Below are positions 7,138 to 59,823 of a stretch of 64,000 bases of DNA, piece by piece. Source of the stretch: Fragilaria crotonensis. Taxonomy: Eukaryota > Bacillariophyta > Fragilariophyceae > Fragilariales > Fragilariaceae. Each line of letters opens with the position of its first letter. Position 1 is the stretch's first letter. The notes under the pieces are model-generated. The model was not told the DNA's origin and made no database searches. It saw only the letters and a program-made list of their open reading frames with translations. Location of the stretch: the NCBI GenBank assembly GCA_022925895.1, contig JAKSYS010000168.1:1-64000 (forward strand). The letters are read 5' to 3'. The position numbers were made by a program, and so were the translations under genes.

Positions 7138-10083
7138 ATGAGAAGGATTGCATTCGTAAGCACGACGTTGCTTATGGCCGCCATGTGTGATGCGTTCGTC
7201 CCCGCAACGTTGTCAAACAAATGCGCGGTATCGTTCCTCGTCAAGCCTCAGCACGAGCTGGCGACTTTCTATCGTAGTCGTCAACTTGGCATGGGTATGT
7301 TCGATGACATGGTCGCATCATCTGACGACAAGAAGAGGGCAAGCCAGAATAAAGCCTACCTTGAGGGTCTCCAGAAGCGAGTCGAAAGAATCAACGCCTT
7401 GGAGGCCACAGTAGAAGATTTGGGCGACGACGAGCTTCAGGCTAAAACAAGCGAATTCAAGGCACGTTTAGCCGCGGGTGAAGATATTAATGGACCGTTA
7501 CTGGAAGAAGCATTCGCTGTGGTTCGCGAAGCTGCTTGGCGAGTTTTAGAATTGCGTCACTACGACGTTCAGCTTTTGGGTGGTTTGGTCCTTCATGATG
7601 GCCGCTTGGCAGAAATGGCAACTGGTGAGGGTAAGACATTGGTGTCCACTTTGCCAGCATATGCCAACGCCTTGTTGGAAGGAAAGTCGTCCTACGTCAT
7701 TACAGTCAACGACTACCTCGCTCGTCGTGATATGGAAAAGATGGGCCAAGTACATCGCTTCTTGGGTCTGACTGTTGGACTGATCCAATCAGACATGAGC
7801 GAGGACCAGCGAAAGATTGCATACGCCTGCGACGTTGTCTACGTGACGAATTCTGAACTCGGCTTTGACTACCTCAGAGATCACTTGGCACTTTCACCCG
7901 GTCAGACAGTATTGCCTGGAGGAGCTGGCGAGTTCGACGGCTTCTGCATAGTTGATGAGGCTGACTCCGTCCTGATTGATGAGGCAAGAACTCCCCTCAT
8001 CATTTCTAAGCAGGTTCCAGCTCCTGCCAATAAGTATGCAACTGCGACTCAACTTGCCAATGCACTGAAGAAGGGTCTGCACTACACGGTCGACGAAAAG
8101 AATAAGAACATTGTCCTCACCGAAATCGGGTACCGAGACGCCGAGAATGCCCTCGGTATTGTTGATCTGTTCTCTATCCAAGGAGATGGCGAAGCATGGG
8201 CTCCTTTTGTGACTAATGCTGTTAAGGCCAAGGAATTGTTCAACAAGGATATAGAATACCAAGTCTTGCTCGACAACGATGGCGCCAAGGCGGGCGTTGG
8301 AATTATTGATGCCTTCACCGGACGTGTCTTAGACGGACGTCGTTGGTCGGATGGCCTTCATCAGAGTATCGAGGCGAAAGAGGGAATCGCTGTCAGTGAG
8401 CAGAGCCAAGTGATTGCCAAGGTCACCTATCAGGCTCTCTTTCGCCAGTTCACGCGTCTTTCTGGAATGACAGGTACTGCCATGGGGGATGCCCCTGAAC
8501 TAGAAATTACGTACGGATTGCAGGTGACCCCAATCCCCACAGCCTTGCCAATCGCTCGACGAGACTATCCAGATGTTTCGTTCAAAACTCGTAAGGCGGC
8601 TAATAAGGCACTCATTAAGGAGGTGGTCAACGTTGGAGGAGGAGAACCCGACGGTCGCCCATGTTTGATTGGAACGACGTCGGTTGCCGAGAGAAGTTGG
8701 TGGCTGCTTTGAAAGAAGGGCATAGAGGCTGAGCTACTGAATGCCTCACCGAAGAATGCTCCTCGAGAATCTGAGATTGTTGCACAAGCTGGACGTGCCG
8801 GTGTCGTGACCGTCGCCACCAACATGGCGGGTCGTGGTACGGACATTTTGCTTGGTGGCTGTCCCAAGACGATGTCCCGCATCAAAGCACGATCCATCCT
8901 AATAGCCGAAGGCGTGATATCTGCAAAAGAAGCCTCTACTCTCCCTCCTACCCCGCCGGAATCCTACTTCCCTTATCCGCTCAATGAAGACATCATGTTC
9001 GCTTTAAGGGATGCCGCCCTTGCGATCAAGAAATCCTTGGGTACTGACATGAGTGCCATAGACCTTGACGAACTCCTGACAGTGGCGAACGACGCGACAG
9101 AGGCCGAGGATGATCCGGACCACATTGTCAAGCTTCGGTTAGCAACAGAATTGGTGAAAGATGCCTACAGCCGTGTATTGTCAGTAGAGAAAGACGCTGT
9201 CAAGGCCCGCGGTGGTCTCTATGTGATGGGTACCAATCGCCACGAGAGTTCTCGCATTGATCGTCAATTGCGCGGACGCGCAGGTCGGCAGGGTGATCCA
9301 GGATCATCGCGCTTCTTTTTGAGTTTCGAAGATGACATGTTTGTCATTTTTGGTGGTGACCAGTTGCCGAAAATGTTGGAGATGTTCCGCGTCAGCGAAG
9401 ACATGCCCGTGGAAGCTCCTCAAGTTACTGAAGCTCTGGGCAAGGTCCAGAAGGTTGTGGAGGACAAATACCGCGAGATTCGTTCTGAAATCTTTCGCTT
9501 CGACGAGACTCTGAACGAACAGCGAAAGGTCATTTATGCTCGCCGTCGCGATATTCTGTTTAGCAGCCCAGAGCAGACGATTGAGTTGGTGAAACAGTAC
9601 AATAAAGAAACGGTGGTCGACATTGTCAAGGCCCAAACAAGTGGAAGCACTGTGAACAGCGCCAAGGTGACGGAGAAGCTGAATCAATTCTTCCCCGGTG
9701 TCGTGGTAGGAGATTTGAGTGGCAAAGATGATACCGCAGTCGTCGCTCAGGCCGCGAATGCCATTAACAAGGCATTTAGTGAAAAAGTAGTGGACATGGA
9801 GGCTGCCGCCAAGGCGGCAGGCCGACCACCGCACCCGCTTGGCCGTTCTGCAAACTACATTACGCTCGTGACCATGGACAATGCTTGGAGTGACCATTTA
9901 CAGAATATGGAGAACTTGAAGGAAGCCGTGATTTTGCGAAAGTACCAAGGCTTGGATATTTTGACGGAATACAAGAACGAGGCATTTGAACTTTTTGTAG
10001 GCCTTGAAGACAAGATGAGGTTCAATGCTGTCTACTCACTGTGGCAAAGTCTAGCACCGCAAGCGGCGCCACAAGCAGCATAG
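7138..10083 (+). CDS. secA: Plastid-targeted SecA preprotein translocase ATPase, one disrupted segment
   Basis: SecA is the motor of the Sec translocase that pushes proteins through SecY; here it should serve the thylakoid. Residues 1-19 form a signal peptide ending CDA|FVP, a bipartite plastid presequence. Walker A is MATGEGKTL, Walker B VDEADSVLIDEARTPL, then the preprotein cross-linking region, SGMTGTA, NMAGRGTDILLGG and GRAGRQGDPGSSRF in the second nucleotide-binding fold, followed by the scaffold/wing region. No C-terminal zinc finger is seen. The span is 981 codons, near the usual plant cpSecA length. At 8688-8712 the frame runs off after GTTSVAE into a TGA, then the same frame resumes as KKGIEAELLNA. 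The simplest reading is two compensating indels (net minus 3). The rest is intact, so it is either a very young lesion or an assembly error. Confidence 0.92.
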
Positions 10084-14523: not shown

Positions 14524-14950
14524 TCAAGTTGGCTGCAATTCCTCAGATCGCCGTTCCATCATTTGCAGGTACTGTTCTTCCGTTACCAACGGATGGATTG
14601 CCTCTTGCAATGACTCCGCGTCCGTAGAGATCGTCAACAATACTTGATCTTCCGTATCAATCTCGTCGCCTTCCAGTACGTACGCCACTTTGCCTCGTAC
14701 TGGTGACAGCAATTTGTAGGTTCCTGAAACGACATTCCAAGATGGTTCGTTGATCGTGTGAATGACATTGAAGTCCCAATCGATTGAAAGGACTTCATCG
14801 CCAACGTCCACATGCTGGTGAAGGATCTTCCTGCGTGTTATGCTGGATATCTGCCCCAGTGCAGTCAAACCGTGATCTGTCATTCCAATATCCACCGACC
14901 ATGTTGATGATGTCGAAGATGCTAATGATGATGATCGGATGGGTCGATAC
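14524..14950 (-). pseudogene. Mitochondrial GcvH-like protein, 3' part, split by a copia element
   Basis: Resembles the H protein of the glycine cleavage system, a lipoyl-domain carrier in mitochondria. The segment shows DIGMTDHGLTALGQI (the GcvH ITD-A--LGDI signature), HVDVGDEV and LLSPVRGKV. The lysine that normally carries lipoate, seven residues before SPV, is not there; a lysine sits only three residues before. The open part begins with a GTG at 14895, but the same frame stays open up to the element junction at 14950. The first 18 codons lie beyond the element at 22253-22307. With the element and one 5-bp duplication left out, host sequence reads through as one 158-codon gene. It is disrupted in this haplotype. 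Confidence 0.8.
14946..14950. repeat. Target-site duplication GATAC (left)
   Basis: Five-base direct repeat abutting the 5' LTR and found again at 22253-22257 after the 3' LTR, the size expected for Ty1/copia integration. Confidence 0.9.
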
Positions 14951-15237
14951 AGTTGAAATATATGAGCTTGAGGTGTGTACTGTGCTACAGTTACTATGAT
15001 GGGCTCCTAGCTACTGGTTCGTGGGATGAGGTTCTATTGATGATGTCATCATATTCATTTTGAATCCCGGCCGTTCGCTTGTCGAATCGGCGCCACCTTT
15101 CGAAATAGAATCATAATTCTGGAAACTAGTAAATTCAATTGCTATTGACCATCTTTGCTTCTATTGAGTAGCAACCCTCGAGACTATCATCCCTTGCATC
15201 GGTAAGCTGTCTCTCTCTTCGTTGTATTACAACGAGT
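14951..15237 (+). repeat. 5' LTR of copia element 1
   Basis: 287 bp, from AGTTGAAATATATGAGC to TTACAACGAGT. It matches the 3' LTR base for base by eye and contains a CTCTCTCTTC tract near its end. Confidence 0.93.
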
Positions 15238-15252
15238 GGTTATGAGCCCAAG
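15238..15252 (+). other. Primer-binding site, tRNA-iMet anticodon type
   Basis: GGTTATGAGCCCAAG directly follows the 5' LTR. Its reverse complement, CTTGGGCTCATAACC, is the 5' anticodon stem plus loop (CAU) of initiator tRNA-Met. Priming from an internal half-tRNA instead of the tRNA 3' end is known for Drosophila copia and relatives. Confidence 0.8.
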
Positions 15253-15319
15253 ACGACTGTCTGTTTATCGAAATAGGACAAGCAACTCATCAAGTGATCT
15301 TATTTAGTGACCTTCCATC

Positions 15320-18300
15320 ATGGCTGAAACTGATCCACCGCCAGCACCCGTTCCTCCAAAACGTGGAGGCCTTCATCCTGAGTTTGGAAGGTTCATTGGC
15401 GGAGCCAAGCTCAACGATTCTTATGAGACTGTCGGCAGAGGTGGAGCCAGTTTGTACCGATTCGCAACGCAGCGGCGCCATGCGAAGACTGTCGCTTCCA
15501 TCGAGAAGACGCTTAGAGAGACACGTAACGCTACAAACGGCATCAAGTTCAACGGGACACTCGAGCCAGGAAAGGACAACCCATCAGAGATTGGAAAAGA
15601 ACGTTTCATTGCTCTGTTGAAGCGACGTGTTACAGAACACGGTCAGCAGACCTTCTACCACATCAAGGACACTGATGGCAAAGTTGTTGACTTGTTCGAG
15701 CACGCCCATAGGTTCAAGCTCAACTTCGTGGTTGCTGAACATGAAAGGCGCATGGAAGAGAACGACTTGCACGAATCATATGACCGCATCGAACGCGATG
15801 ATTGTGAGTTGTCTCGCGGGGTCGTGGAATCCTTCTTTTCTGATTCCTTCCAGGAGAAGATTGAAATCCGTTTTAGCCACCGCGAAGATTTTGAAACACT
15901 TCCAGGATCTTGTTTGTTCATGATGGCACTTGAGACTTGTAATGCCTCTGTATTCCATGACGTTGAGGGCGCCAAGAAGAAGCTAGAGGCTTTGGACCTC
16001 AATTCGTACCCTGGCGAAAATGTCACCGATCTCGCTGGCGAGGCTCAACGATTGTTGAAGATTATGTCAGGGGCCTACGCTGTCCCAGTGAATACTGGTT
16101 CGACCTTGTTGATGAAGCTCACGCATACATCTAGTGAGATCTTTAATCGCAAGATCTTTGCCCTGCTCGATGAGGTCATGACCCTTGAGTCAGAGTACGA
16201 GCTCGAGGATCCCCGTCTGTTTGCCAAAGATGAGAAACATCGGAAGTATGGCCCTCTGGCACTTGTCGCTACTATCCAGGCATCTCATGGCTTGCTTTTG
16301 AGTCAGCAACGCTGGCCAGCATTGGCGGCCTCGTTGCCGCAAAGTAACAACTCCTCCGTATCTACCGGTGGGTCCTCCGGAGCTGGAACGGCGCCTCTCA
16401 ACGGCCGTAAGTGTTACCGCTGCCAAGGCGATCACTTAGTGCGCGACTGTCCTGTTCCAGCACCAGCAGACGGCACAGGCTCTGCTGCCAGCCGATCTGT
16501 AAATCAACGTCAGAAGCCGCCCCTCGCCGCTTGGAAATACATCAAACCGACTGATTTGACTGTTCCTCGCGTTGACGCAAATGGCAAGACGTGGAAGTTC
16601 TGTACTAAGTGTAAGTGTCGCGCTACACAAACAATTGGTATCTACCAGCTGAGCCATTGGGACACCGAACATGTGGATAATTATCGCCGTCCAGGATCTA
16701 CGCCGTCAACTACTCCAGCATCCTCGAGTGACACCTCTGAAGCTCCACCAGAAGTGCCGGTGGCAGGTACCGTTACCGCCCCGCAAGGTAATCTTACCTC
16801 CGTTGCCAACCCCAATCCTATTCCGCCTGGTCCTCCTGACGTTACGGTTCGTCCACTGCACTTGACCGACGATGTTCATGATAATGATCAAATTGAGTTT
16901 ACGGGTATGTGGTGTGCCTCCGTGGATGATTCTACTGTCTCGGCCGATGCTGTGTTTCAAGTGCAGCTCTACTGCTCTCTCGTGGATTCTCCAGCGGCGG
17001 CCGATGCCATTATCACCATGACTGGTCCGTCGCCATCCGTCTTCGAGAGGGAGAGTGTTCCTGCCTTGCCCATTGAACCTGTTGCCGAAGACGGGATTCG
17101 CGACGACGTCGACGATGATGACGATATCACTGTTGTGACTATGTTCCCAGACCCTGATTGCATTGATCACAATGACACGGACGCCGTGGATTATCCCTCC
17201 ACCGATGACGATGATGATTCATTCTATGATGATACCAGCGCGACTGACGATGAGGACACTGATGACATTTCTGTTTGCGATGCTGCTGGGCTGGACCCGA
17301 CTGATCCATGGTCTATTCTTTCTGCTGCTGTTCGCTACGACCTCGAGACTCTGCCGTCCGATGAGTTCTATGATGCTATGGAGGTTGAAACTCCCGTTAC
17401 CATCTACAAAGGAATTGAATTCTTCGACCCGATCGAACCTCCGCTCATCTCTCCTATTTGGTTTCGTCCTCGACCGGAACATTGGCTGTCTCGCTGGGTG
17501 AAGCTCGGTTTGTTCTGGGTGTCCACGGTGTTTTGGGACACGATTGCCCATTTCATCTCCCCTCCTCCACCAGTATTGCGTCGTATTCGCCGTCGTCGCC
17601 GCCCTATTACTGTCCCAGCCTATCCCAAGACGTGGATGCTTCTCACGACCTGCTTGATGATTGGTATGGATGCCTTTCAAGGTCATGCTCCACGGTTCCC
17701 GATTCAGAGTCCAATGTTGCTAATCGACCAGGCAGTTACCTGTGGCCGAGCATCATACGAACGTATCGAACGCCTTGAAGAGCTCGTTGTCCTCAATACA
17801 GGGACATTTCTGCAGTATCAGTCTTTGCAGTATCGCCTGATCAGTCAGATGATCGAAGCCAGGAATCCACAGATCGAATCCAAGATCATGGACACTGACT
17901 CGGAGCAGTTCTTCGACTCATATGAACAAGCGCCAAATGAAACGGGCATGTATTTCTTTGATGCTATGGAAGCAGAGGAGCAAGTCACGGCCATTGCATC
18001 ATTTGAGCCTTTTGCTGTGCACGAACTGGTGCATCATGCAATAACGATGGACTGTATAACTCAATCTGTGGAGGCGGAACTCCTACACGATAGCCAACAA
18101 GGACTCAATGGACCGACCGTACTTCATCAAGGGCTCTCAAGCGAAGCATTTCAGATGCTTGCTACTGATCCTTATGCATTTATGAGTATCGGAGGAGGCA
18201 AGCGAAAGCCCGTTATTTTTGACACCGGAGCGTCTCTCGGAATTACTTACGACAAGGAGGATTTCGAGGGAACCCTCACTGTTCCAGAGGGAGATTTGCG

Positions 18301-21300
18301 CCTTGGAGGCATGGCACAAGGATTAAAAATTGAAGGTGTTGGACCAGTCAGTTGGACGTTTCAAAATCCTGATGGTAGCGAGATGAAGATAAGGTCACAA
18401 TGTTATTTTGTTCCCGAAGCGAAGGTCCGTCTGATCAGTCCACAACGGCTATTCAACAAAAGCAAGGGCATCACCGGCAAGTTTGAAGGAGACGAAGACA
18501 CATTCATTTTGCATTTTGATGGCGGACATCGATTGATTGTTGAGTACGACACCCGAAATCATCTTCCAATTGGATACGCCATGGTCGGCACCGATGTACC
18601 ACCCTTGATCAACCCGCAAGCAAATCTCACATTGTTCGATGACACCAATCAGAACGTTACTGCTGGACATCGCCTTCTCATGAACTGGCATGGAAGATTT
18701 GGACATCTGAACTTTCCAGCCGTTCAGCGTATTCTTCGTCAGTTTCCTTTTGTATCAGTCAAATTTGCGGCGGCGTCGAAATGTGACTTGACAGACTTTC
18801 GATGCGAGATTTGTCAATATGCAAAAGCTCATCGTCGTACCACTCATGGGAAGCGAACTCAAGTCAATGAAGAACGTGATGGATCACTTCGCGCTGAACA
18901 TCTGGGACCAGGTACTCGTGTCTCGGTTGATCACTTTGAATCCCGACTTCTTGGTCGCACCCGCGACTCGTTTGGAAAGCCATCATCAGATCAATACAAA
19001 GGAGGCTGCATTTTTGTGGATCATGGGACAGGGTACTTACATGTGGAACATCAGTTGGGGTTCTCCGCCGTCGAGACGATTCGTGCCAAACAAAGCTTTG
19101 AGAATATGGCATTTGAACACGGTGTGGTGACACAGTCATATTTGACTGACAGCGGCGCTTTCAAAGCCAACGCATTCGTTCAACACATTCGAGAGCACGG
19201 CCAGCAGATTCGCTACTGCGGCACCAATGCTCATCACCAGAATGGAATTGCAGAGAGGTCGATCCGCACAGTGTCCAATATGGCTCGAGCCATGCTGCTG
19301 CATTCCGCAGCTCACTGGAAAAACGGTGTTGACAGCTCTTTGTGGCCAATGGCAGTCACATACGCGGTTTACGTCTACAATAACACACCGAATGCACAAA
19401 ATTTGTGTCCTGCCGATTTGTTTACTGGGAGTACAGTCCCACGTCATCGCCTACGGGACCTTCATACATGGGGATGCCCAGTATATGTTTTGGATCCATC
19501 GTTGCAGGCTGGCAAAAAGCTACCACGCTGGGAACCTCGATCTCGTCGAGGTGTCTTCGTCGGTCTCAGTACTATCCATTCAAGTGAAGTTCCGTTGATC
19601 CTAAACATTGCTACTGGAAGTATTACTCCGCAGTATCATGTGGTGTTTGATGATCGCTTTTCAACAGTTACATCTATTGGCAGCGATGACGACCCTCCCT
19701 CCGATTGGGATGATCTATGTTTGGATAACTCCTTTTATGTGCCGGCCGAAACCGCGCCTGACACACCTGTTCACTTACATGATGATTGGCTCACCGACAT
19801 GGAACGTGAAGTCAAGTACCGCGACCTTCAACGTCAGGATCGTGTGCGAAATCTACAACATCCACAACAATCTACGTCACCCGGTCCTGCTCTTTCTACT
19901 CCGCCTTCAAGCAAACCATCTTCAGAGGGAGATATTCCAACCGTCACTTCCATCGCTCCTACTCAGCAGAAATCTCCATCGAAGCCTGTCTCCGTTGCTC
20001 CAGCATCGCTCTCGGGCACCTGTTCTGGTCCTGTAATTGGACCTGATGTCGTTACATCCTCGGAATCAATGAGTGATCCGAGTATTCGTCGTTCTACTCG
20101 CGCTACGAAAGGCACCTTTCAATCAACGAAGTACATTGACGAAGCTTATCTTACGTCTATCGATCGACTTGCCCAATGCGATTCCTACACGAGCCATCTC
20201 GCTTATCTTGCCGAGATCTCTACCTGTTGCGATACTGGGATTGAAAACGTTGTCGACCCCCGAATATACGCTGCCAAGACCCCTGGTTCGGACCCCGATA
20301 TGCCCACTTTTCATCAAGCTGTAAATGGAGAGCATGCCGAAGAATGGATTAAAGCTATGCAGCTGGAAGTCGAGACTTTAGTTCAACAACGCACCTGGCT
20401 AATGGTTCCGCGGACGGCTCAACTCAACGTTTTGAAGAGCACCTGGGCGTTTAAGTTGAAGCGCTTGCCAGATGGAACACCATACCGTTTCAAAGCTCGT
20501 TTCTGCGCTCGCGGGGATTTGCAAAAGGAGGGAGTCGATTTCTTCGACACCTATGCTCCGGTGGTTCAATGGTCAACTATTCGACTTCTGCTCAGCACAG
20601 TCTTGACTGAAGGATGGGCGACGAGGCAGGTGGATTACACGAATGCTTTTGCTCAAGCGAAATTGAATGAAGAAGTGTACTTGGAATTTCCAAAGATGTT
20701 CGCTCCAAAGTCTCGCTCTAACGTTGTGTTGAAACTCGTCAAAAGTCTCTACGGCCTCCGACAGGCACCTCGTACGTTCTTTGAAAAACTCCGCGATGGC
20801 TTACTTGAGCGTGGTTACATTCAATCTCAGAATGACCCGTGTCTGTTCATGAAGGACGGCATTATGTGTGTTGTGTATGTGGATGACACTATATTCGCAG
20901 GAGCAAATCCATCAATCCTGGAAGAAGAAATTCGCGCTCTAGGAGTCAGCGAAACCGAGCAACGTCACTCGTTCCAACTTCGCAACGAAGGCGAGGTTGG
21001 TGCTTTTCTCGGTATTCAAATCACAAAGACTGGAAAGCGTACGTTTTCGCTTCTTCAAACTGGATTGATCTCCAGAGTTCTCACTACGGCAGGTATGTCA
21101 GATTGTAACGGGGTTTCGACTCCGACTGGTAACTCACCTGTCGGAAGTGATCTGGACGGTGTACCTTTTTCCGAAACCTGGCAGTACCGTACTGTCATCG
21201 GTATGTTGATGTATCTGGCAGCAAATACTAGGCCCGATATTGCATTCGCGGTTCATCAGGCGGCTCGCTTCTCTCACGCACCGCGACAGTCCCACGCTAT

Positions 21301-21946
21301 GGCCGTCAAACGTATTCTTCGCTACCTCAAAGAAACTCACGACAAAGGACTCATCATGTCGCCAACGGACGATCGGAAGGTTGATTGTTACGTCGACGCC
21401 GACTTCGCTGGGGCATTCGCTGTCGAAAATCCTCACGATCCCGCTTCCGTCAAATCTCGCACTGGCTATGTGATTATGTACCGCGGCAGTCCGCTACTTT
21501 GGGTTTCCAAGATGCAGACTCAGGTGGCATTGTCGACGATGGAAGCCGAGTATGTCGCACTGTCCCAATCTATGAGAGATTTGATTCCAATTCGTCAGAT
21601 TTTGCAAGAGATCATGACAACTGTATTCAAGGTTGCACCTACTATTATGTACCGTTCTTTCTCGAAGGCCTTCGAAGACATTCAGGACGGTTCTCTTCCA
21701 TCCAATATCGAGCAGTCAACTGTCTATGAGGACAATCATGCTTGTTTGAAGTTTGCTCGTATGGCTCAGCTGAGCCCACGCACCAAACATATCGGCATCC
21801 CGTATCATTGGTTTCGGTCCAAGGTTGAAAGTTTGGACATTCACATCGCGTCCATTCCAACTACCAAGCAGTTAGCTGACCCATTTACTAAGGGCCTTTC
21901 TCAAGTTCCCTTTGAGTTGTCACGCAAGGCTTTGATGGGCTGGTAA
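15320..21946 (+). CDS. Gag-Pol polyprotein of copia element 1
   Basis: A single 2208-residue reading frame starting MAETDPPPAPVPPKRGG. Rough order: gag with a zinc knuckle CYRCQGDHLVRDC near residue 364; a long acidic spacer with a hydrophobic stretch near 770; protease with DTGAS near 966; integrase with an HHCC zinc region and catalytic core near 1120-1360; reverse transcriptase with YVDD near 1855; and RNase H with VDADFAG near 2025. Gag and pol share one frame, as in many copia elements. The large gag-protease spacer is longer than in typical plant copia. Confidence 0.93.
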   Translation: MAETDPPPAPVPPKRGGLHPEFGRFIGGAKLNDSYETVGRGGASLYRFATQRRHAKTVASIEKTLRETRNATNGIKFNGTLEPGKDNPSEIGKERFIALLKRRVTEHGQQTFYHIKDTDGKVVDLFEHAHRFKLNFVVAEHERRMEENDLHESYDRIERDDCELSRGVVESFFSDSFQEKIEIRFSHREDFETLPGSCLFMMALETCNASVFHDVEGAKKKLEALDLNSYPGENVTDLAGEAQRLLKIMSGAYAVPVNTGSTLLMKLTHTSSEIFNRKIFALLDEVMTLESEYELEDPRLFAKDEKHRKYGPLALVATIQASHGLLLSQQRWPALAASLPQSNNSSVSTGGSSGAGTAPLNGRKCYRCQGDHLVRDCPVPAPADGTGSAASRSVNQRQKPPLAAWKYIKPTDLTVPRVDANGKTWKFCTKCKCRATQTIGIYQLSHWDTEHVDNYRRPGSTPSTTPASSSDTSEAPPEVPVAGTVTAPQGNLTSVANPNPIPPGPPDVTVRPLHLTDDVHDNDQIEFTGMWCASVDDSTVSADAVFQVQLYCSLVDSPAAADAIITMTGPSPSVFERESVPALPIEPVAEDGIRDDVDDDDDITVVTMFPDPDCIDHNDTDAVDYPSTDDDDDSFYDDTSATDDEDTDDISVCDAAGLDPTDPWSILSAAVRYDLETLPSDEFYDAMEVETPVTIYKGIEFFDPIEPPLISPIWFRPRPEHWLSRWVKLGLFWVSTVFWDTIAHFISPPPPVLRRIRRRRRPITVPAYPKTWMLLTTCLMIGMDAFQGHAPRFPIQSPMLLIDQAVTCGRASYERIERLEELVVLNTGTFLQYQSLQYRLISQMIEARNPQIESKIMDTDSEQFFDSYEQAPNETGMYFFDAMEAEEQVTAIASFEPFAVHELVHHAITMDCITQSVEAELLHDSQQGLNGPTVLHQGLSSEAFQMLATDPYAFMSIGGGKRKPVIFDTGASLGITYDKEDFEGTLTVPEGDLRLGGMAQGLKIEGVGPVSWTFQNPDGSEMKIRSQCYFVPEAKVRLISPQRLFNKSKGITGKFEGDEDTFILHFDGGHRLIVEYDTRNHLPIGYAMVGTDVPPLINPQANLTLFDDTNQNVTAGHRLLMNWHGRFGHLNFPAVQRILRQFPFVSVKFAAASKCDLTDFRCEICQYAKAHRRTTHGKRTQVNEERDGSLRAEHLGPGTRVSVDHFESRLLGRTRDSFGKPSSDQYKGGCIFVDHGTGYLHVEHQLGFSAVETIRAKQSFENMAFEHGVVTQSYLTDSGAFKANAFVQHIREHGQQIRYCGTNAHHQNGIAERSIRTVSNMARAMLLHSAAHWKNGVDSSLWPMAVTYAVYVYNNTPNAQNLCPADLFTGSTVPRHRLRDLHTWGCPVYVLDPSLQAGKKLPRWEPRSRRGVFVGLSTIHSSEVPLILNIATGSITPQYHVVFDDRFSTVTSIGSDDDPPSDWDDLCLDNSFYVPAETAPDTPVHLHDDWLTDMEREVKYRDLQRQDRVRNLQHPQQSTSPGPALSTPPSSKPSSEGDIPTVTSIAPTQQKSPSKPVSVAPASLSGTCSGPVIGPDVVTSSESMSDPSIRRSTRATKGTFQSTKYIDEAYLTSIDRLAQCDSYTSHLAYLAEISTCCDTGIENVVDPRIYAAKTPGSDPDMPTFHQAVNGEHAEEWIKAMQLEVETLVQQRTWLMVPRTAQLNVLKSTWAFKLKRLPDGTPYRFKARFCARGDLQKEGVDFFDTYAPVVQWSTIRLLLSTVLTEGWATRQVDYTNAFAQAKLNEEVYLEFPKMFAPKSRSNVVLKLVKSLYGLRQAPRTFFEKLRDGLLERGYIQSQNDPCLFMKDGIMCVVYVDDTIFAGANPSILEEEIRALGVSETEQRHSFQLRNEGEVGAFLGIQITKTGKRTFSLLQTGLISRVLTTAGMSDCNGVSTPTGNSPVGSDLDGVPFSETWQYRTVIGMLMYLAANTRPDIAFAVHQAARFSHAPRQSHAMAVKRILRYLKETHDKGLIMSPTDDRKVDCYVDADFAGAFAVENPHDPASVKSRTGYVIMYRGSPLLWVSKMQTQVALSTMEAEYVALSQSMRDLIPIRQILQEIMTTVFKVAPTIMYRSFSKAFEDIQDGSLPSNIEQSTVYEDNHACLKFARMAQLSPRTKHIGIPYHWFRSKVESLDIHIASIPTTKQLADPFTKGLSQVPFELSRKALMGW

Positions 21947-21965
21947 CTCTCGGGTTGAGAGGGAG

Positions 21966-22252
21966 AGTTGAAATATATGAGCTTGAGGTGTGTACTGTGC
22001 TACAGTTACTATGATGGGCTCCTAGCTACTGGTTCGTGGGATGAGGTTCTATTGATGATGTCATCATATTCATTTTGAATCCCGGCCGTTCGCTTGTCGA
22101 ATCGGCGCCACCTTTCGAAATAGAATCATAATTCTGGAAACTAGTAAATTCAATTGCTATTGACCATCTTTGCTTCTATTGAGTAGCAACCCTCGAGACT
22201 ATCATCCCTTGCATCGGTAAGCTGTCTCTCTCTTCGTTGTATTACAACGAGT
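21966..22252 (+). repeat. 3' LTR of copia element 1
   Basis: 287 bp, same sequence as the 5' LTR, preceded by the purine run GAGAGGGAG and followed by the GATAC target duplication at 22253-22257. Confidence 0.93.
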
Positions 22253-22307
22253 GATACCAAAGGTGAAGTGCCGGAACGTAGAGCTGTCGACCCAAACGAG
22301 ATGACAT
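22253..22307 (-). pseudogene. 5' coding fragment of the split GcvH-like gene (presequence)
   Basis: Minus-strand ATG at 22307-22305 begins MSSRLGRQLYVPALHLWY, an Arg- and Leu-rich, acid-free stretch typical of a mitochondrial targeting peptide. It stops at the copia junction inside codon 19. The matching continuation, RPIRSSSLASSTSS..., is at 14950 on the other side of the element, followed by the H-protein domain. The 5-bp target duplication GATAC (14946-14950 and 22253-22257) lies inside the codons for Tyr18 and Arg19. Confidence 0.78.
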
Positions 22308-28318: not shown

Positions 28319-28447
28319 TGTTGTTAGGGAACCCGGAGGGTCATTGTGATTACGTCACAGGTCGCAACACTATGCCCAAGTCAGGGCCACCCAAATCTAG
28401 CTCATAATTTATGTAGCTCACCGTTTTGAACGACAAGCACTTCAATA
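28319..28447 (+). repeat. 5' LTR of copia element 2
   Basis: 129 bp from TGTTGTTAGGGAACCC to GCACTTCAATA. It matches the 3' LTR without substitutions and differs by two indels. Confidence 0.85.
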
Positions 28448-31400
28448 GAGCTACATAACCTTTTCAACCCTCGGCGTCGAGAACGATCGCCGTATACCTC
28501 CGCCGACGTAGTCATCAATACTACTCGGATAGCGTGTTGTGTGTCGAGACTTTTCTCCACCGACTTTCACCATGTCCTCGTCCGCGAAATTCAATTTCCC
28601 ATTTGACACGTTGACACCCATCACTGGCAAACCAACAAATACCACGTTGCAGCTCCTACAGCGCCAACTATTCACGAATGCACGTTCCGTCCCATCCGCC
28701 CGAGGCGGTGGTCTTCACGGACATTTGGCCATCCTCCTCAGCGACGCCGATTACATCGCTCGCGTCGGGGTTGCCTTTATCATTCCTGTGCATCCTGGTC
28801 CGCCTCCCATTGCCGCCGGCACTGCCGCAGCCATTTCCGTTGCCCTCCGAGCCTACACGGATGCCCTTGACGATGTTGCTCTATACAACAATTTGCGTGC
28901 AGCCTTAACCGCCCAAATTCTGACTGCCGTTAATCCCTCGTTTCTTAGCGCACTCGAAGATCCCGATTTTGGATTTGGCGACATCACACCATTCGCCATG
29001 CTACAACATCTTCGCAACGAGTATGGTACCATGACACCGGAGGAGTTGGAACGCAACCGCGCCGCACTCTCCGAACCATGGAATTTCGATGATCCCATCG
29101 AGGATTTATGGGCGAAAATATCTAACATTCAACGCGTCGCAACACTCGAGCGCTTCCATTCCTGATCTCACGGTCATCACGCTCACTTTGGCAATGATTG
29201 AGAAAACTGGTCTCTTGTCTACTACTACTGACAAGTTCAGATTGCGACCAACCACCGAATGGACGCTCGACCTTTCAAGGCCGAATTCAAGTTGGGGAAT
29301 CAAGAGCGCATTCGCCGCCTAACAGCTAGCGACGCGGGCTTCCATGGCGCACATCATGCAACCATCATCACCCCACCGCCCAATACCGCTGCGGCCGCAA
29401 CTACGCCTTCAACGGCAACCGCCCCACCACCTCCGCCGACGCAACACGTCTCTGTCGAAGGCGGCAAAATGTATTATTGCTGGTCGCACGGTCTTTCGCC
29501 AAATCGGAAGCACACTTCCGCCACGTGTTTGAACAAAGCGGCTGGACATCGCGACGACGCTACCGCATTCCGCATGCACGGCGGCAACAACACTATCGCC
29601 ACTGGTCGTCCTCGTCGGTTTCAACAACTACCACACAAGAGTGACGCCGAGGCCTGCAAGTTGCAATTTAGTACTGTGTTCCCCACCGCCAGATAACGTT
29701 TTAAACGATATTGGTTACACTCATCTATCTTCTACGCCTGTAGGTCCCCCCCACCAGCCTTTCTCCCGAAATGACTGCCATCGCAGACAGTGGCAGCACC
29801 GCTCACTTCTGCACTATTGCCGCCACAGTAATAAACAAACGCATAACCAGCACCCCTATCGGCATTACCAATCCTAACGGTACGGTTATGTATTCAACTC
29901 ACGAAGCCGATCTAGACATCCCTTGTCTCCCCGCCGCCGCTCGCCGCGTTCACATTGTTCCTGCCCTAAAATCCCACTCGTTGCTATCAATGGGCCAATT
30001 GTGCGATGCCGGGTGCGAAGTTGTGTTTTCCGCTGCGGCCGTCCATGTCCATCACAACGACAAGCTCATCATGAGTGGCGACCGGTCACCGCTCACCGGC
30101 CTCTGGCATCTCGACCTCGTCAACGTCACACCAGCGCTGCCACCCACACCGCCCGCCAACAACTTACATCTCAGCTTCGCCGCCATCGCATCCACCACGC
30201 CTGCCGACCTCGTTGCGTTTGCACACGCAACCATGTTTTCTCCGGCACTCTCCACGCTCAAAACTGCGCTGGACCGCGGTTACGTCCCAGATTTCCATGG
30301 CCTCACGACCAAAACCTTGTCCCGCTACCCACCCCTGTCCGTAGCGATGATCAAAGGCCATCTCGATCAATCGCGCAAGAATCTCCGGTCGACTAAAGCC
30401 CACACCACCGACGCACCTGTCGCCCCTAGTCCCGACGACGAAGACGATGATACCAGCTCCCATTTCCCGTTGAGTGAACCGCAAAACACCCGCACACATC
30501 ATTGTTTTGCAGCCATCTTTGAGCCTGCCACCGGCCAGATTCATACCGATCAAACAGGCCGTTTTATCGTCGCATCCAGTACCGGCAACAACTATATCCT
30601 GGTATTATATGATTACGACAGCAACAGCATCCTGGTGGAACCGATGCGAAATCGTACCGGCGCCTGTATTCTCACTGCCTTCAAGGTTCTCCACGCCCGC
30701 CTTGTCGCCGCCGGTCTCCGCCCACGCCTCCAACGCCTCGACAATGAATGCTCTACGGCATTGAAGACATTTCTCACTGCCGAAGACATCGATTATCAAC
30801 TCGTGCCTCCTGGCGTACACCGCCGCAACGCAGCCGAACGTGCCATCCGCACTTTCAAAAACCACTTTATTGCCGGCTTGTGCAGCGTCGACAAACACTT
30901 CCCATTACATCTGTGGGATAGACTCCTGCCCCAGGCCGAAACAACATTAAACTTGTTGCGCGGCTCGCGCATCAACCCGAAACTGTCTGCATATGCACAA
31001 CTCCATGGCGCATTCGACTGCAACCGCACTCCCATGGCACCGCCTGGCATCCGCGTCCTTGTACATGTCAAGCCCCACGATCGCACCACCTGGTCTCCAC
31101 ATGGTGAGGATGGTTGGTATACCGGCCCCGCCCTGGAATCCTACCGTTGTTACACAGTTTGGATATGGGCCTCACGAGCAACGCGCATCTGCGACACGCT
31201 CACATGGTTACCCACCAAGCTACCGATGCCTGTCGCTTCATCCGCGGATCGCATTCTCGCCGGAATTTCCGCCATCTTGCACGCATTGCAGCATCCATCC
31301 CCCGCGTCGCCATTAGCACCGCTCACGACCACCCATCACGACGCCGTCATACGCCTTACTGACCTCCTCAACGCCGTCGTCACCCCACCAACGCCAACGA

Positions 31401-33664
31401 CTCTCGACGCGCCCGCCGCCATTGCACCTACGGCCCTGCTGCCAACGACCGCAACACAATCCGAGTCCGTGCCCGAATCCCACGCCGATGCAGATCCACC
31501 ACTGAGGGTGGCGTTGCCACCCTCGTTCCCGATGCATCTCTGAGGGTGCCCAGCACTAGCCCCCATCCTCTGCCGTCAACGTGCCCAGTCCCGTACGGTC
31601 CCCTTCGCGCCGTTGCCGTCCGATCTCGTCGTCGCCACGTTCGCCAACTCTACCGGACTCCGTGGTAAACAACGACGCAGGGCCACGCGCCGCCGTCTTC
31701 CCCACCGCCCTGCGAGAATACCGCCCAGACTCTCCCTCCCACCAAACGACACACCAACGCGCGGCCTCCGGACCTTCCTTCGTCGCCCCATCGGCTTCCC
31801 GCGCTAAGCCACGACACTCCCGGCACCCGCCTTGCCTCACGTCTACGGCACATATCCGCCGCTGCTCGCGCCGTCATTCTTGCTTCTCGCGCTGCGCACA
31901 CGGCAGCACCGTCTCACTATGCACTACACGGTAACGCATTCAATCCTGACACCGGCAAACTGGCTGAGTATCGCGAACTCAGCCAGTGCAGCGAAGGTGC
32001 TTTATGGCAAAGCTCCAACGCGGATGAAATCGGTCGACTTGCCCAAGGACACGGCGATCAAAAGGCACCAACACTATGTTTTTATCAACGTGTCCGACAT
32101 TCCCAAAGGGCGCAAGGCAACGTATTTGCGCGTCGTTTCCGCCATGCGTCCAGAAAAAGCCCACGGCGCGTGCGTTGGACCGTCGGTGGCGATCGCATCG
32201 ATTATCCCGACGTCAGCACCAAAACCGCCGACCTCACCACCGCCAAACTCCTCATCAACAGCACCATCTCGACGCCCAATGCGCTACATGACTGCTGACC
32301 TCAAGGATTTCTATCTTGGAACCCCATGTCCAGGTACGAATATATGCGCATTCCCATCGACATGTTGCCAGATGCCATCATCGACGAATACAACTTACGT
32401 CCGCTCTTTCACAACGGATACGTTTACGTCGAAATTCGTCGCGGCATGTACGGCCTCCCGCAAGCCGGCCGTCTTGCCAATGACCAACTCATTGCGTTCT
32501 TGGCACCGCACGGATATCGCCCGTCCCGCTCACGCCTGGATTATGGCGCCACGACACCAAAGACATCGTCTTCAGCTTAGTCGTTGACGACTTTGGCGTT
32601 CATTACACTTCACGCACCGACGCCGAACACCTTATCTCTACCCTCGAATCCGCGTATCAAGTCAGCACTGATTGGACGGGTTCGCGATATTGCGGTTTAA
32701 CGTTGCGTTGGGATTACGACGCCCGAACATGCGACATTTCCATGCCCGGTTACATCGAACGCGCATTACTGCGCTTCCAGCATCCATTGCCCACCAAACC
32801 CGAACATTCTCCCCACCCTGGCAAAAGCCCAACTACGGCGCCAAAACCCAATTTGCCATCGTACCTGATGACGCCACCGCTCTCGATGCCACCGACAAGC
32901 GCCGCATTCTCGAAGTTCTCGGTACACTCCTTTTCTACGCTCGCGCCATCGACTCCACACTACTCACCGCCATCGGCGAACTCGCCACGGAACAATCCGA
33001 AGGCACCAAAACAACGATGGAGAAGCTCTCCCAACTTCTGAATTACTGCGCCACGCATCCCAATGCCACTGTCCGCTTCACCGCCAGCGACATGATCCTT
33101 GCGGTCGAAAGTGATGCTTCCTATCTGTCGGTCGTCAAAGCCCGTTCGCGTGCTGCAGGATATTTTTATCTCACCACTGCGCCCGTTACATCCACCGCCG
33201 CGCTCAAACCAAATGGCGCCGTCCACGTCCTCTGCCACATCATGCGCGAGGTTCTCTCCAGTGCCGCTGAAGCCGAACTTGGTGCTCTGTTTCATAACGG
33301 AAAGGAAGCATGCCCCTCCGCATTGCTCTTGAAGAAATGGGCCATCCCCAGCCTGCAACCCCATGGCTACCGACAACAATACTGCCAGCGGCATTGCTAC
33401 TGATACTGTCAGGTCAAAACATGCGATTTTACTGGATCCGCGATCGTGTTCGACAAGGCCAGTTCAAAATCTACTGGAGCAAAGGTCAAACCAACCGTGC
33501 CGATTATTTTTCCAAACATCACTCTTCTTCTCATCATCAGGCAATTCGTTCCACATATTTATATTCACCTACGAATCCTACGCGAAATTACTTCGACTGC
33601 CTGTCCGATGACGTCGCTCCACCGCTTCCTACAGCCAATTCTACAGTGGCCCCTGGTGAGGGTG

Positions 33665-33800
33665 TGTTGTTATCCCCGGGGAACCCGGAGGGTCATTGTG
33701 ATTACGTCACAGGTCGCAACACTATGCCCAAGTCCAGGGCCACCCAAATCTAGCTCATAATTTATGTAGCTCACCGTTTTGAACGACAAGCACTTCAATA
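33665..33800 (+). repeat. 3' LTR of copia element 2
   Basis: 136 bp, preceded by the purine-rich GGTGAGGGTG and followed by the GGGAT duplication at 33801-33805. Confidence 0.85.
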
Positions 33801-33805
33801 GGGAT

Positions 33806-38439: not shown

Positions 38440-40520
38440 CTAAATTCTAAAGTTGGGATTCAGAGTCCCATCCTTCTTATCCCTCTTCAGCCCATTAATG
38501 ATGTTGGTCACTGAAGTCTGACCACCATAGACAGCATAAATCTTGTCTATGGCGGTCTCTGCAGTATCCCCATGCGAATCAATCTTGATACCAAGTCCCA
38601 CACAACCTTGCGTCGGCTGTACCGATGCTTTGAGCGACCTCGCTCAGTGTAGGAGAACAGTCTAGCTGCTTTCCTCCCACCGACTCCATGATGATACTCT
38701 TGCCAGAGGTCGTGAAGACTTCTGGGCGTCGGCATCAGCGTCGCCATCATTGCGAGGTCGTTCGCAGCAGCTCTTTCAGGCACCTCCTCCGCTCCTGCTT
38801 CGCCCTCGCCTCTCTCCCCACCAGCAGTCCGTCGCCTCGCAGGTTGCAATGCAATTCGCCTCACATTTCCATTCAAAATGCCAAAACACCGCTCCAGATT
38901 CAATTGAATTCGATTGACCGCTGTCTTTAACTCCACATTGTCTTGTCGTAGGGACAACAAACCCGACTGCATACCCAACAATTGATTTCGCATTGTCACA
39001 TTCGTCCCAAGCGCAGGCTGTCCAGCTACTCCATCCACATCAATTGCCCCAACCATATCAATGAAGACTGCTCCGTGATCGCCTGACACCGTCACCGCCA
39101 TCTTCTTGATTGGATTCATTTCAGGATCAACATCTGCCCCGAACATGTTCCCATTCCGAAAGAACGTCACGTTTGAAATCACCCGGAACGTACTCATCAG
39201 CAAGCGGAGAGCAAATCAACCACAACAACGCCTTACCAAGTACAAGACACGCCGATTCTGGTCGCTTCCTGATATTTGGAACGACTCGACTCAGAACGAA
39301 TGTGTTCATCATAGTCGCGTCAAGTGTCTGGTCAGGCACATAAAAGCAAGGACCGCCACCACACAACTTCTCAGCAACCTTCGCATCGGGAAATGGAAGC
39401 TCAACATCATCATAGACATCGGATACTCTACCTGTTCCTTTCCATCTACCTCTGATATCTTTCTCGTCTTTAGTGACCCCACATCGTCGGGCAAATGTCG
39501 CAGCATACTTTCGAATGCTGTGACTTCCCAGCATAGACAATTCACCGTCACCATTCTCCTCCCCCTTGAATTCCTGGCGTCTGAACATACGTGTAAATAA
39601 AGATTGTATCATTGCCTTCGTCTTCAGTCCTCCATCTGGAACACGTACGTCATCGCTGATGCAAAAAACATATGGAGAATTCATTGCTGTCGGATTCAAC
39701 TTCAAATTTAATTCAAGCCACAATGCGAGTGAGCACAAAACACAATATACAGGATTCAGGGACCCCAACACAATCTGCCATGGTGCATCTCGTTCATCGT
39801 CCACATTTTTGGACCAGTTCAATCTGGTTTTCAATGCATTTGGAAACGCATCGTGGACTCGAATATGCTCCAGTACAAGTTGAGTTGAGTCATCAACTCG
39901 AGCTATCAAATGGAATTGGAAGTTCACCATCGCCGATATACCATACCTTTTCCAGAATACATCATGTGCACCTTCACCCTCTGGCCTGCAGACAAAACAT
40001 TACGATTCAAAAGGTCATGCATTACAACAAATTCCTGACCAAGCATGGGCCGTCGAGTCTGCGAATCCACCCCTTGTTTCCTTGCCTCTTTCTTCTTGAC
40101 ACGCTTGATCAGACCATTTACGAGCGCACTACGGGTAGGGTTACCTTCAGTTCTTGTCACACTCCACATGTCGCGATTAGGCATGAAATACGAGATTGCT
40201 TTCTTGTCCATTGCCAAGGAGTTTGCTCGTGCTGAAATGGGATTCGCATCTCCCGCAGGTTCTGTTGTCCCAAAAGTCTTCAAATTCATATACCGCAGCA
40301 CATCATTCGGAGTTATAGCAGCTAACACCTCCATTGCATGAACATGATCCCGATGATACTCACCTCCAACAGGACGATTGTGGAGAAAAGACATGAACGA
40401 AGCAAGAATACATTTGTACTTCGTCAGAGTTTTGGTGTCAACCATTCTATCGACAAGTATTACAAATGAGTCAAAGGGTACCTTACGAAACTTGTCGCAT
40501 TCGTTCCATATGTACCACAT
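38440..40520 (-). mobile_element. Crypton-type DNA transposon: tyrosine recombinase with GCR1_C-like tail
   Basis: Reading from 40520 down, three colinear overlapping ORFs (to 39924, 39127 and 38547) and a short last segment to a stop at 38440 make one recombinase. The N-terminal helical part is a core-binding-like domain (TLTKYKCILASFMSFL). The catalytic part shows FHLIARVDD (first Arg), HSIRKYAATFARRCG (HxxR), GRWKGTGRVSDVY (Trp in place of the third His, then the nucleophile Tyr). The tail, SLHDLWQEYHHG, FSYTERGRSKHRYSRRKVVWDLV and TNIINGLKRDKKDG, resembles the GCR1_C DNA-binding domain of fungal and oomycete Cryptons. No reverse transcriptase or LTR is near. The three frame changes may be decay, introns or assembly indels. 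Element ends were not found. Confidence 0.72.
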
Positions 40521-58547: not shown

Positions 58548-59823
58548 TCATGGATTCATCTCGTTTTGGAAACCTTCGTTGATAACTTCGCTCCACTGCT
58601 TCCACAGAGCTCGCTTTCTCTCTTCGTCAGCCTTCCCACTCTGTTTATAATTCAAATGAGGACTCACAACCTTGGTTCCAAAGGAAGCATAATCCTGACA
58701 TGCTTTCATAGTTTTCACGTGTTCTGCTTCATCCATGCAAATGTTTTCAAACACGTCCAACAAGGTATCGCATGGCGGCCTGCGTGTCCCGGGGGAGCGC
58801 GATACTTGGAAGTCGTCGAAGAGGTACAAATCGCCAGTCAAGTAATACGAGCGCGCTACGGTGGGTGCAGGCAGCTCCGACAGACGCTGGCGGTTTACTT
58901 TGACGAAAGTGCCGTACGTGTCGACAGCATGGCTTTCCAAAAGTTCCATGAATTGATACGCGATCCGAGGAGAGCAAAGGTACACCACGATTAGAAACCA
59001 ATAGTAAGCAAGAGCAGCGTGGTAGCCGATGAATCGATCACTCCAGACAGCATTTCCACCAAGAGATTCCATAATGAGCAGATGGTGCAATTCGTTCCAA
59101 TCTTCATGGATGTGTGAGTAACATATCCTTGTCAAGCAGAAGTTCAACGGAGCAACCTACCTTCGGCTGCATGCACTTTCCTGAGCTCGACGGCACGGAA
59201 CCATCCGAAGGACTCGTACAGATGGAGCATGCTGACATAAGAAAAGTATGGGATTCGGGCGATTGTTTCCAAGAACCAGAAGCGTTGAATTGGCCTTTCA
59301 TCGAAGAGTCCATCCAAGAACAGGCAACCCAAATCATACAGGGCCAAACTGACCGGATGGGCGTCGACTCCACCTCCAGCGGCGATCCGTGCGGCCTCCG
59401 CATCTGCAACGGCCTTGTTGGGAAGGGATAATCTCAGACAAGCTGGAGGCCGGAGTGGATCTCTCTCTTTGATTCCGGCTATCTCGAAAACTTCGTCAAT
59501 AATGGTCTTTCCTTGGCGAACGAAATTAGATGCTGCTAAGTTCCACGAAGAATCAGGCTGATTGTCAAGAGAATGTCAGCAAGCAAGTAGGGGGAATCCA
59601 ATATTGATTGAAGCACGGCCAGCAAACAGCAGGCACTTACCTTGGTCCCGTCAAAGAAGCCCTCATATTCAATTTCAAGATACATTTCTTCCGTTTCGTC
59701 CATCTTCGTTTCCGTTTCCATCGAGAATAATTTCGATTGACGAGAAGTCATGGACTTCACTGGGGCGAAGCAAAAGGCTCCATCCAAGAAAGCGAGGACT
59801 ACAACACTAATGATAAGCTTCAT
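58548..59823 (-). CDS. PTOX: Plastid terminal oxidase (PTOX, alternative-oxidase family)
   Basis: A di-iron plastoquinol oxidase that passes electrons from plastoquinol to oxygen in the thylakoid, used in carotenoid synthesis and chlororespiration. Three exons: 59641-59823, 59161-59557 and 58548-59101, with introns of 83 and 59 bp (59558-59640, 59102-59160), give 377 residues in a continuous frame. The N-terminus MKLIISVVVLAFLDGAFCFAPVK is a signal peptide with an ASAFAP-like site, marking plastid import. All ligand motifs are present: LYESFGW, EDWNELHHLLIMESLGGN, ELLESHAVDTY and DEAEH, supplying four Glu and two His. The EDW Glu codon ends exactly at the exon 2/3 junction. No anomalies. Confidence 0.94.

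Follow-up and report, generated by a model that had tools for sequence, protein, structure and literature searches.

The window analysed here is a 64-kb (64,000-nucleotide) stretch of Fragilaria crotonensis DNA. A copia-type LTR retrotransposon occupies positions 14951-22252 of its plus strand and lies within a small open frame of the minus strand, whose two parts flank the element at 22254-22307 and 14524-14949. The element is bounded by a 5' LTR (14951-15238, plus strand) and a 3' LTR (21966-22253, plus strand), which are identical at 288 of 288 bases and lie 7,015 bp apart. The sequence GATAC is found at both ends of the element, with the left copy of this target-site duplication at 14946-14950 and the right copy at 22253-22257 (plus strand). 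The base G at 15238/22253 can be assigned either to the LTR or to the target duplication. Two readings of the element result: 7,302 bp with 287-bp LTRs and a 5-bp GATAC duplication, or, if 22253 is counted as LTR, 7,303 bp with 288-bp LTRs and a 4-bp ATAC duplication. The empty site is the same under both. A repeat of 4 or 5 bases placed exactly at both LTR ends would be expected by chance in roughly 1 in 256 to 1 in 1024 cases. The initial annotation had described a 7302-bp antisense copia element with identical LTRs and a GATAC duplication, and the coordinates, the LTR pair and the flanks all agree with that description. A blastn search of the 64-kb window at E 1e-3 revealed no further copy of the LTR, of the element interior or of the host flanks.

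The interior of the element holds a single Gag-Pol frame of 2208 amino acids (15320-21946, plus strand) that contains no internal stop codons. It is followed by a polypurine tract, GAGAGGGAG (21957-21965, plus strand), seen in the sequence, which adjoins the 3' LTR. Pfam analysis, run on pieces of the frame, identified RVT_2 (E-value 5e-41), gag_pre-integrs (9e-8), SH3_retrovirus (8e-8) and Pol_BBD (1e-6). The gag_pre-integrs and SH3_retrovirus domains were found in 18497-20001 and precede RVT_2, found in 20000-21943. Thus, the integrase-side domains come before the reverse transcriptase, which is the Pol order of the Ty1/copia type; paired LTRs with a short target duplication are likewise as in Ty1/copia. 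The Gag half produced no Pfam match over the cut-off, and neither the integrase core (rve) nor RNase H was matched by Pfam in the element's frame. Motifs for the integrase core, RNase H and protease were placed by eye only. Against viral_contigs, the reverse transcriptase piece gave nine pattern matches, none of which was confirmed, and a 24-mer of the LTR gave no matches. Judged from its sequence, this is apparently a complete, autonomous-looking Ty1/copia retrotransposon.

The best comparison among diatoms is with the CoDi1-7 elements, which include Blackbeard and Surcouf of Phaeodactylum tricornutum (PMC2806351); the element was likened to them from their published description rather than from CoDi sequences. 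They have the Ty1/copia Pol in common with the present element. CoDi elements are reported to range from 5182 to 8062 bp and their LTRs from 153 to 844 bp, and both the element and its LTRs fall within these ranges. LTR identity is high here, as it is in CoDi (94-100% reported), and the 4-5 bp target duplication resembles the 4-bp TTCC duplication of Blackbeard (PMC2806351). The LTR termini are different. They begin with AGTTGAAAT and end with CAACGAGT(G), giving AG...GT or AG...TG, unlike the TG...CA ends reported for 23 of the 26 CoDi families. Because the remaining 3 of those 26 families are described without such ends (PMC2806351), TG...CA is not obligatory in diatom elements of this type.

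A candidate primer-binding site, GGTTATGAGCCC (15238-15249, plus strand), adjoins the 5' LTR. It is complementary to the anticodon arm of initiator tRNA, with a 12-nt exact match to positions 30-41 of E. coli metZ, which served as a proxy for the alga's own tRNA. The match sits exactly at the border between the LTR and the internal region, so that the initiator-tRNA primer site typical of Ty1/copia is present as judged with the E. coli proxy. Among all 12-mers of metZ, this site was the only match in the 64-kb window, with none on the plus strand and one on the minus strand. A tRNA scan and an Rfam scan at the gathering threshold, both of the 64-kb window, each produced no matches. In Drosophila copia, cleavage of the tRNA follows position 39. 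Cleavage after the same position here would imply 288-bp LTRs and an ATAC duplication. A half-tRNA is reported to serve copia as primer, and in yeast Ty5 the primer's 3' end is produced when the tRNA is cut within its anticodon loop (PMC5371799). As in those two elements, the site here matches the anticodon arm of the initiator tRNA and not its 3' end, with an E. coli tRNA standing in for that of the alga. The likeness suggests half-tRNA priming of the same kind, in which case the element would be a further example alongside Drosophila copia and Ty5.

The LTRs differ at 0 of 287 sites, so their divergence is bounded, at the 95% level, by 0.0104 substitutions per site. The mutation rate reported for P. 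tricornutum is 4.77e-10 per site per generation (PMC6604790). If this rate applies, the bound corresponds to at most about 1.1e7 generations. The insertion had been called very young. It is recent, in that the LTRs are identical, but identity sets only an upper bound, of some 11 million generations.

When the flanks of the element are joined, a single minus-strand frame of 158 amino acids is obtained, MSSRLGRQLYVPALHLWY-RPIRSSSLASSTSS..., and the element interrupts it after codon 18. This bears out the suggestion that one host frame is split across the element. The first 18 codons (MSSRLGRQLYVPALHLWY; 22254-22307, minus strand) encode a candidate mitochondrial presequence. The remainder, P0001 (14524-14949, minus strand), is 141 amino acids long and carries what is left of the presequence, then a remote H-protein-like domain and a stop codon; through the target duplication, its first residue repeats the last residue of the 18-codon part. 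In the joined frame, a stop codon precedes the first ATG by 10 codons.

Several lines of evidence bear on whether the joined frame is a gene. First, codon usage in the six frames of 14524-14949 was positive for the host frame alone (+6.2 bits, with the others at -3.4 to -21.7), and the five other frames hold 3-10 stops. Codon usage did not separate the frame from non-genic open stretches: 373 of 697 controls reached the score of the remainder's first 100 codons, and 2603 of 6001 control stretches reached that of the leading 18 codons. Secondly, the continuity of the frame into an ATG is by itself only modest evidence, because reading upstream from non-genic points often reaches an ATG ahead of any stop (2533 of the 6930 points sampled, and 950 of the 6930 at a length of at least 18 codons). 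The case for the leading 18 codons therefore draws on several features together: the target duplication, the frame, the A at -3 of the host ATG, and the fact that the first AUG downstream lies inside the domain.

The effect of the insertion on this allele follows from the anatomy. Translation from the host ATG at 22307 gives 18 host residues and three encoded by the LTR, and then meets a premature stop in the antisense 3' LTR (22242-22244, minus strand), for a total of 21 amino acids. Since the start codon and presequence are cut off from the domain, with stops between, the normal product has very likely been lost on this allele. A reading in which the insertion is tolerated and the gene still works would require either a shorter transcript, driven by a cryptic promoter or by the LTR in antisense and translated from a downstream AUG, or the splicing out of the element within a long intron. 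In agreement with this, the frame is open over the 19 antisense-LTR codons ahead of the downstream half, and the first in-frame AUG downstream of the insertion (14881-14883, minus strand) would give a product of 119 amino acids. The 19 codons contain no AUG themselves. Starting at 14883 would cost the protein its entire presequence and the beginning of the domain, however, and the normal frame stops after 21 codons, so we regard continued function as quite unlikely. A GTG at 14895 had been put forward as a restart site. It was set aside in favor of the AUG at 14883-14881, as the GTG came from the bacterial start codons used for the open reading frame list and restart in a eukaryotic nuclear gene would be at AUG.

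Mitochondrial targeting of the host protein is only plausible. The first 36 residues of the joined protein contain four Arg and no Asp or Glu. The same composition was found in 31 of 918 ATG-led open stretches, taken from all frames of the window with genes included, and 10 of these had an equal or higher hydrophobic moment.

The identity of the host protein was approached in several ways, since it had been labelled GcvH-like. The protein had no match in Pfam at E<=1, GCV_H included, in NCBIfam at E<=5 or among PDB sequences at E<=10, and BLASTP against E. coli GcvH produced no match. Pattern searches for relatives gave nine matches in viral_contigs and 75 in genome_contigs, none confirmed; neither is a eukaryote collection. 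Two H-protein profiles were then compared with the host protein and 1000 shuffles of it by local HMM score, with 856 and 858 of the 1001 sequences, respectively, given a reported score. The enterobacterial-type profile was built from 59 H-proteins similar to the E. coli one, which remained of 81 after redundant sequences had been removed, and placed the host protein 42nd of 1001. The broader profile was built from 35 H-proteins, of which 30 came from genomes of a single bacterial phylum, four were taken over from the first profile and one was from Thermus; it placed the host protein fourth of 1001, with three shuffles higher, and aligned host VDIGMTDHGLTALG to the H-protein stretch VGITDHAQEALG.

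End-to-end comparison with the 35 H-proteins favored a remote H-protein relative. The score of the host protein was equalled by 2 of 1000 shuffles; in a second shuffle set, aligned with free end gaps under two gap settings, 1 of 1000 equalled it under either setting. It was equalled by none of 684 control windows, comprising 126 from ten ORFs of the region and 558 from bacterial open frames. The bacterial frames were those of at least 100 amino acids in six frames, from which 30 H-protein matches among 296 frames had been removed; the windows overlap, and many of these frames may be non-genic. Similarity to H-proteins is distributed along the domain in the multiple alignment. At the lipoyl-lysine column, K is present in 35 of 35 references and the host protein has N in two alignment modes, so that the lysine of the ESVK-type motif is missing, and an eight-residue insertion follows four columns past that column. 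A single-sequence structure model of the host domain had a mean pLDDT of 36.6 and is uninformative on an H-protein fold.

It is thus a weak likeness to GcvH/GCSH, extending along the domain, that sets the protein beside the 35 H-proteins, while the N, the insertion and the lack of a profile-library match set it apart. The GcvH-like label stands as far as end-to-end similarity beyond nearly all controls, but not as a library match or as a protein with the lipoyl lysine. On its sequence, the host protein is a probable remote H-protein relative and is read as unable to be a standard lipoyl carrier. Two other views of the open frame were weighed against this. In one, it encodes an unrelated, lineage-specific small protein that resembles H-proteins by chance, and the insertion breaks an orphan gene. 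The failure to match any family or PDB sequence agrees with that view, as do the missing lipoyl lysine and the shuffles that score above the host protein (41 and 3 of 1000 by local HMM, 1-2 of 1000 end-to-end). However, neither the region's ORFs nor the bacterial windows equalled the end-to-end score (0 of 126 and 0 of 558), and the similarity is spread along the domain; we regard this view as a distinct possibility, though not a probable one. In the other, the frame was already dispensable or decaying and the insertion was without consequence. Its weak similarity, indistinct codon usage and lack of the lipoyl lysine would fit decay, but the rest of the frame has stayed open for 141 codons where the five other frames of the stretch carry 3-10 stops, and this view is considered unlikely.

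The explanation that we favor, with good though not complete confidence, is that a half-tRNA-primed copia element inserted in antisense and split a small nuclear gene with an H-protein-like domain. Under this explanation, a Ty1/copia element was probably reverse transcribed from a primer consisting of the 5' half of initiator methionine tRNA, cleaved in the anticodon loop. The integrase would then have placed the element antisense at the 18th codon of the gene, with 4-5 bp duplicated. The gene most likely encoded a 158-amino-acid protein in which a basic, plausibly mitochondrial presequence preceded a divergent H-protein-like domain that lacks the lipoyl lysine. On this allele, translation begun at the original start codon yields the 21-residue peptide and stops. 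Rescue would need a transcript starting in or reading out of the antisense LTR together with initiation at AUG 14883, and its product would be untargeted and would lack the start of the domain.

There is a precedent for a eukaryotic H-protein relative in another role, likened here by description only. Simiate (gene FAM206A) is a eukaryotic protein, and about 20% identity is reported between the prokaryotic H protein and protist Simiate (PMC3859600). The Simiate case suggests that such eukaryotic relatives of H-proteins exist. Many transposable element insertions in P. tricornutum are described as confined to a single haplotype while the second seems intact (PMC2806351), and heterozygosity would therefore be unsurprising here. 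It can be proposed tentatively, and with more doubt than confidence, that the interrupted gene belongs to a eukaryotic mitochondrial H-protein-like family without the lipoyl lysine and with an insertion in the lipoyl hairpin, whose members would have the H fold without being standard carriers, and that a presumably haplotype-specific, possibly still mobile copia element has naturally knocked the gene out. Should there be an empty allele, comparing it with this one would amount to a natural knockout experiment on a small protein, possibly mitochondrial, that goes unrecognised by the family libraries searched.

As an insertion, the event is fairly ordinary, and it provides a clean, roughly datable case in which a coding frame is broken by an antisense copia element that is apparently intact. 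Among the titles listed in a literature search on transposable element insertion and mitochondrial targeting in diatoms, none concerned such a case, which does not prove absence. Elsewhere, the window encodes eukaryotic ribosomal proteins, which together with the N-termini described next suggest the nuclear genome of a photosynthetic, stramenopile-like organism. On these features alone a diatom would be likely, although a nuclear SecA gene speaks against a typical one. The N-termini of proteins encoded in the window are, judged by motif, what we take to be plastid-signal-like.

The window contains a second LTR element, probably a degenerate one, at 28319-33801. It is bounded by direct repeats at 28319-28448 (130 bp) and 33665-33801 (137 bp), and the sole differences between these repeats are one 6-bp gap and one 1-bp gap. 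The ORFs located between the repeats appeared copia-like on inspection by eye. Searched against Pfam, they gave a sub-threshold match to SH3_retrovirus (E 0.096), and matches between this stretch and the first copia element (14951..22252) were weak, with a best E of 0.019.

A minus-strand ORF at 38547-40520 has its GCR1_C DNA-binding domain at 38550-39203, with an E of 4e-6. The ORFs adjoining it are tyrosine recombinase-like by eye; a Pfam search of these neighbours returned no matches. In combination with the GCR1_C ORF they resemble a Crypton transposon. In addition, the ORF at 61403-62014 matches the Plant_tran transposase at E 1.2e-4, just over the family cut-off, and thus the window may hold four mobile elements.

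Within the copia element, a long acidic spacer (17000-18499) lies between a zinc-knuckle-like Gag motif and the protease, both of which were placed by eye. The spacer includes two moderately hydrophobic stretches, the better being LGLFWVSTVFWDTIAHFIS at about 17504-17560 (mean hydropathy 1.2).

A nuclear SecA containing SecA_DEAD, SecA_PP_bind, P-loop and SW domains is encoded at 7138-10083. Its coding sequence is divided over two ORFs, and an intron may lie between them. Close to the N-terminus of this SecA is CDAFVP, which resembles the plastid import signals of red-lineage algae. Because secA is among the plastid genes listed for coscinodiscophycean diatoms in PMC10307964, either this SecA is a transferred or second copy or the alga is something other than a typical diatom. 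An ORF of the alternative oxidase family is found at 58551-59147 on the minus strand (E 9e-21).
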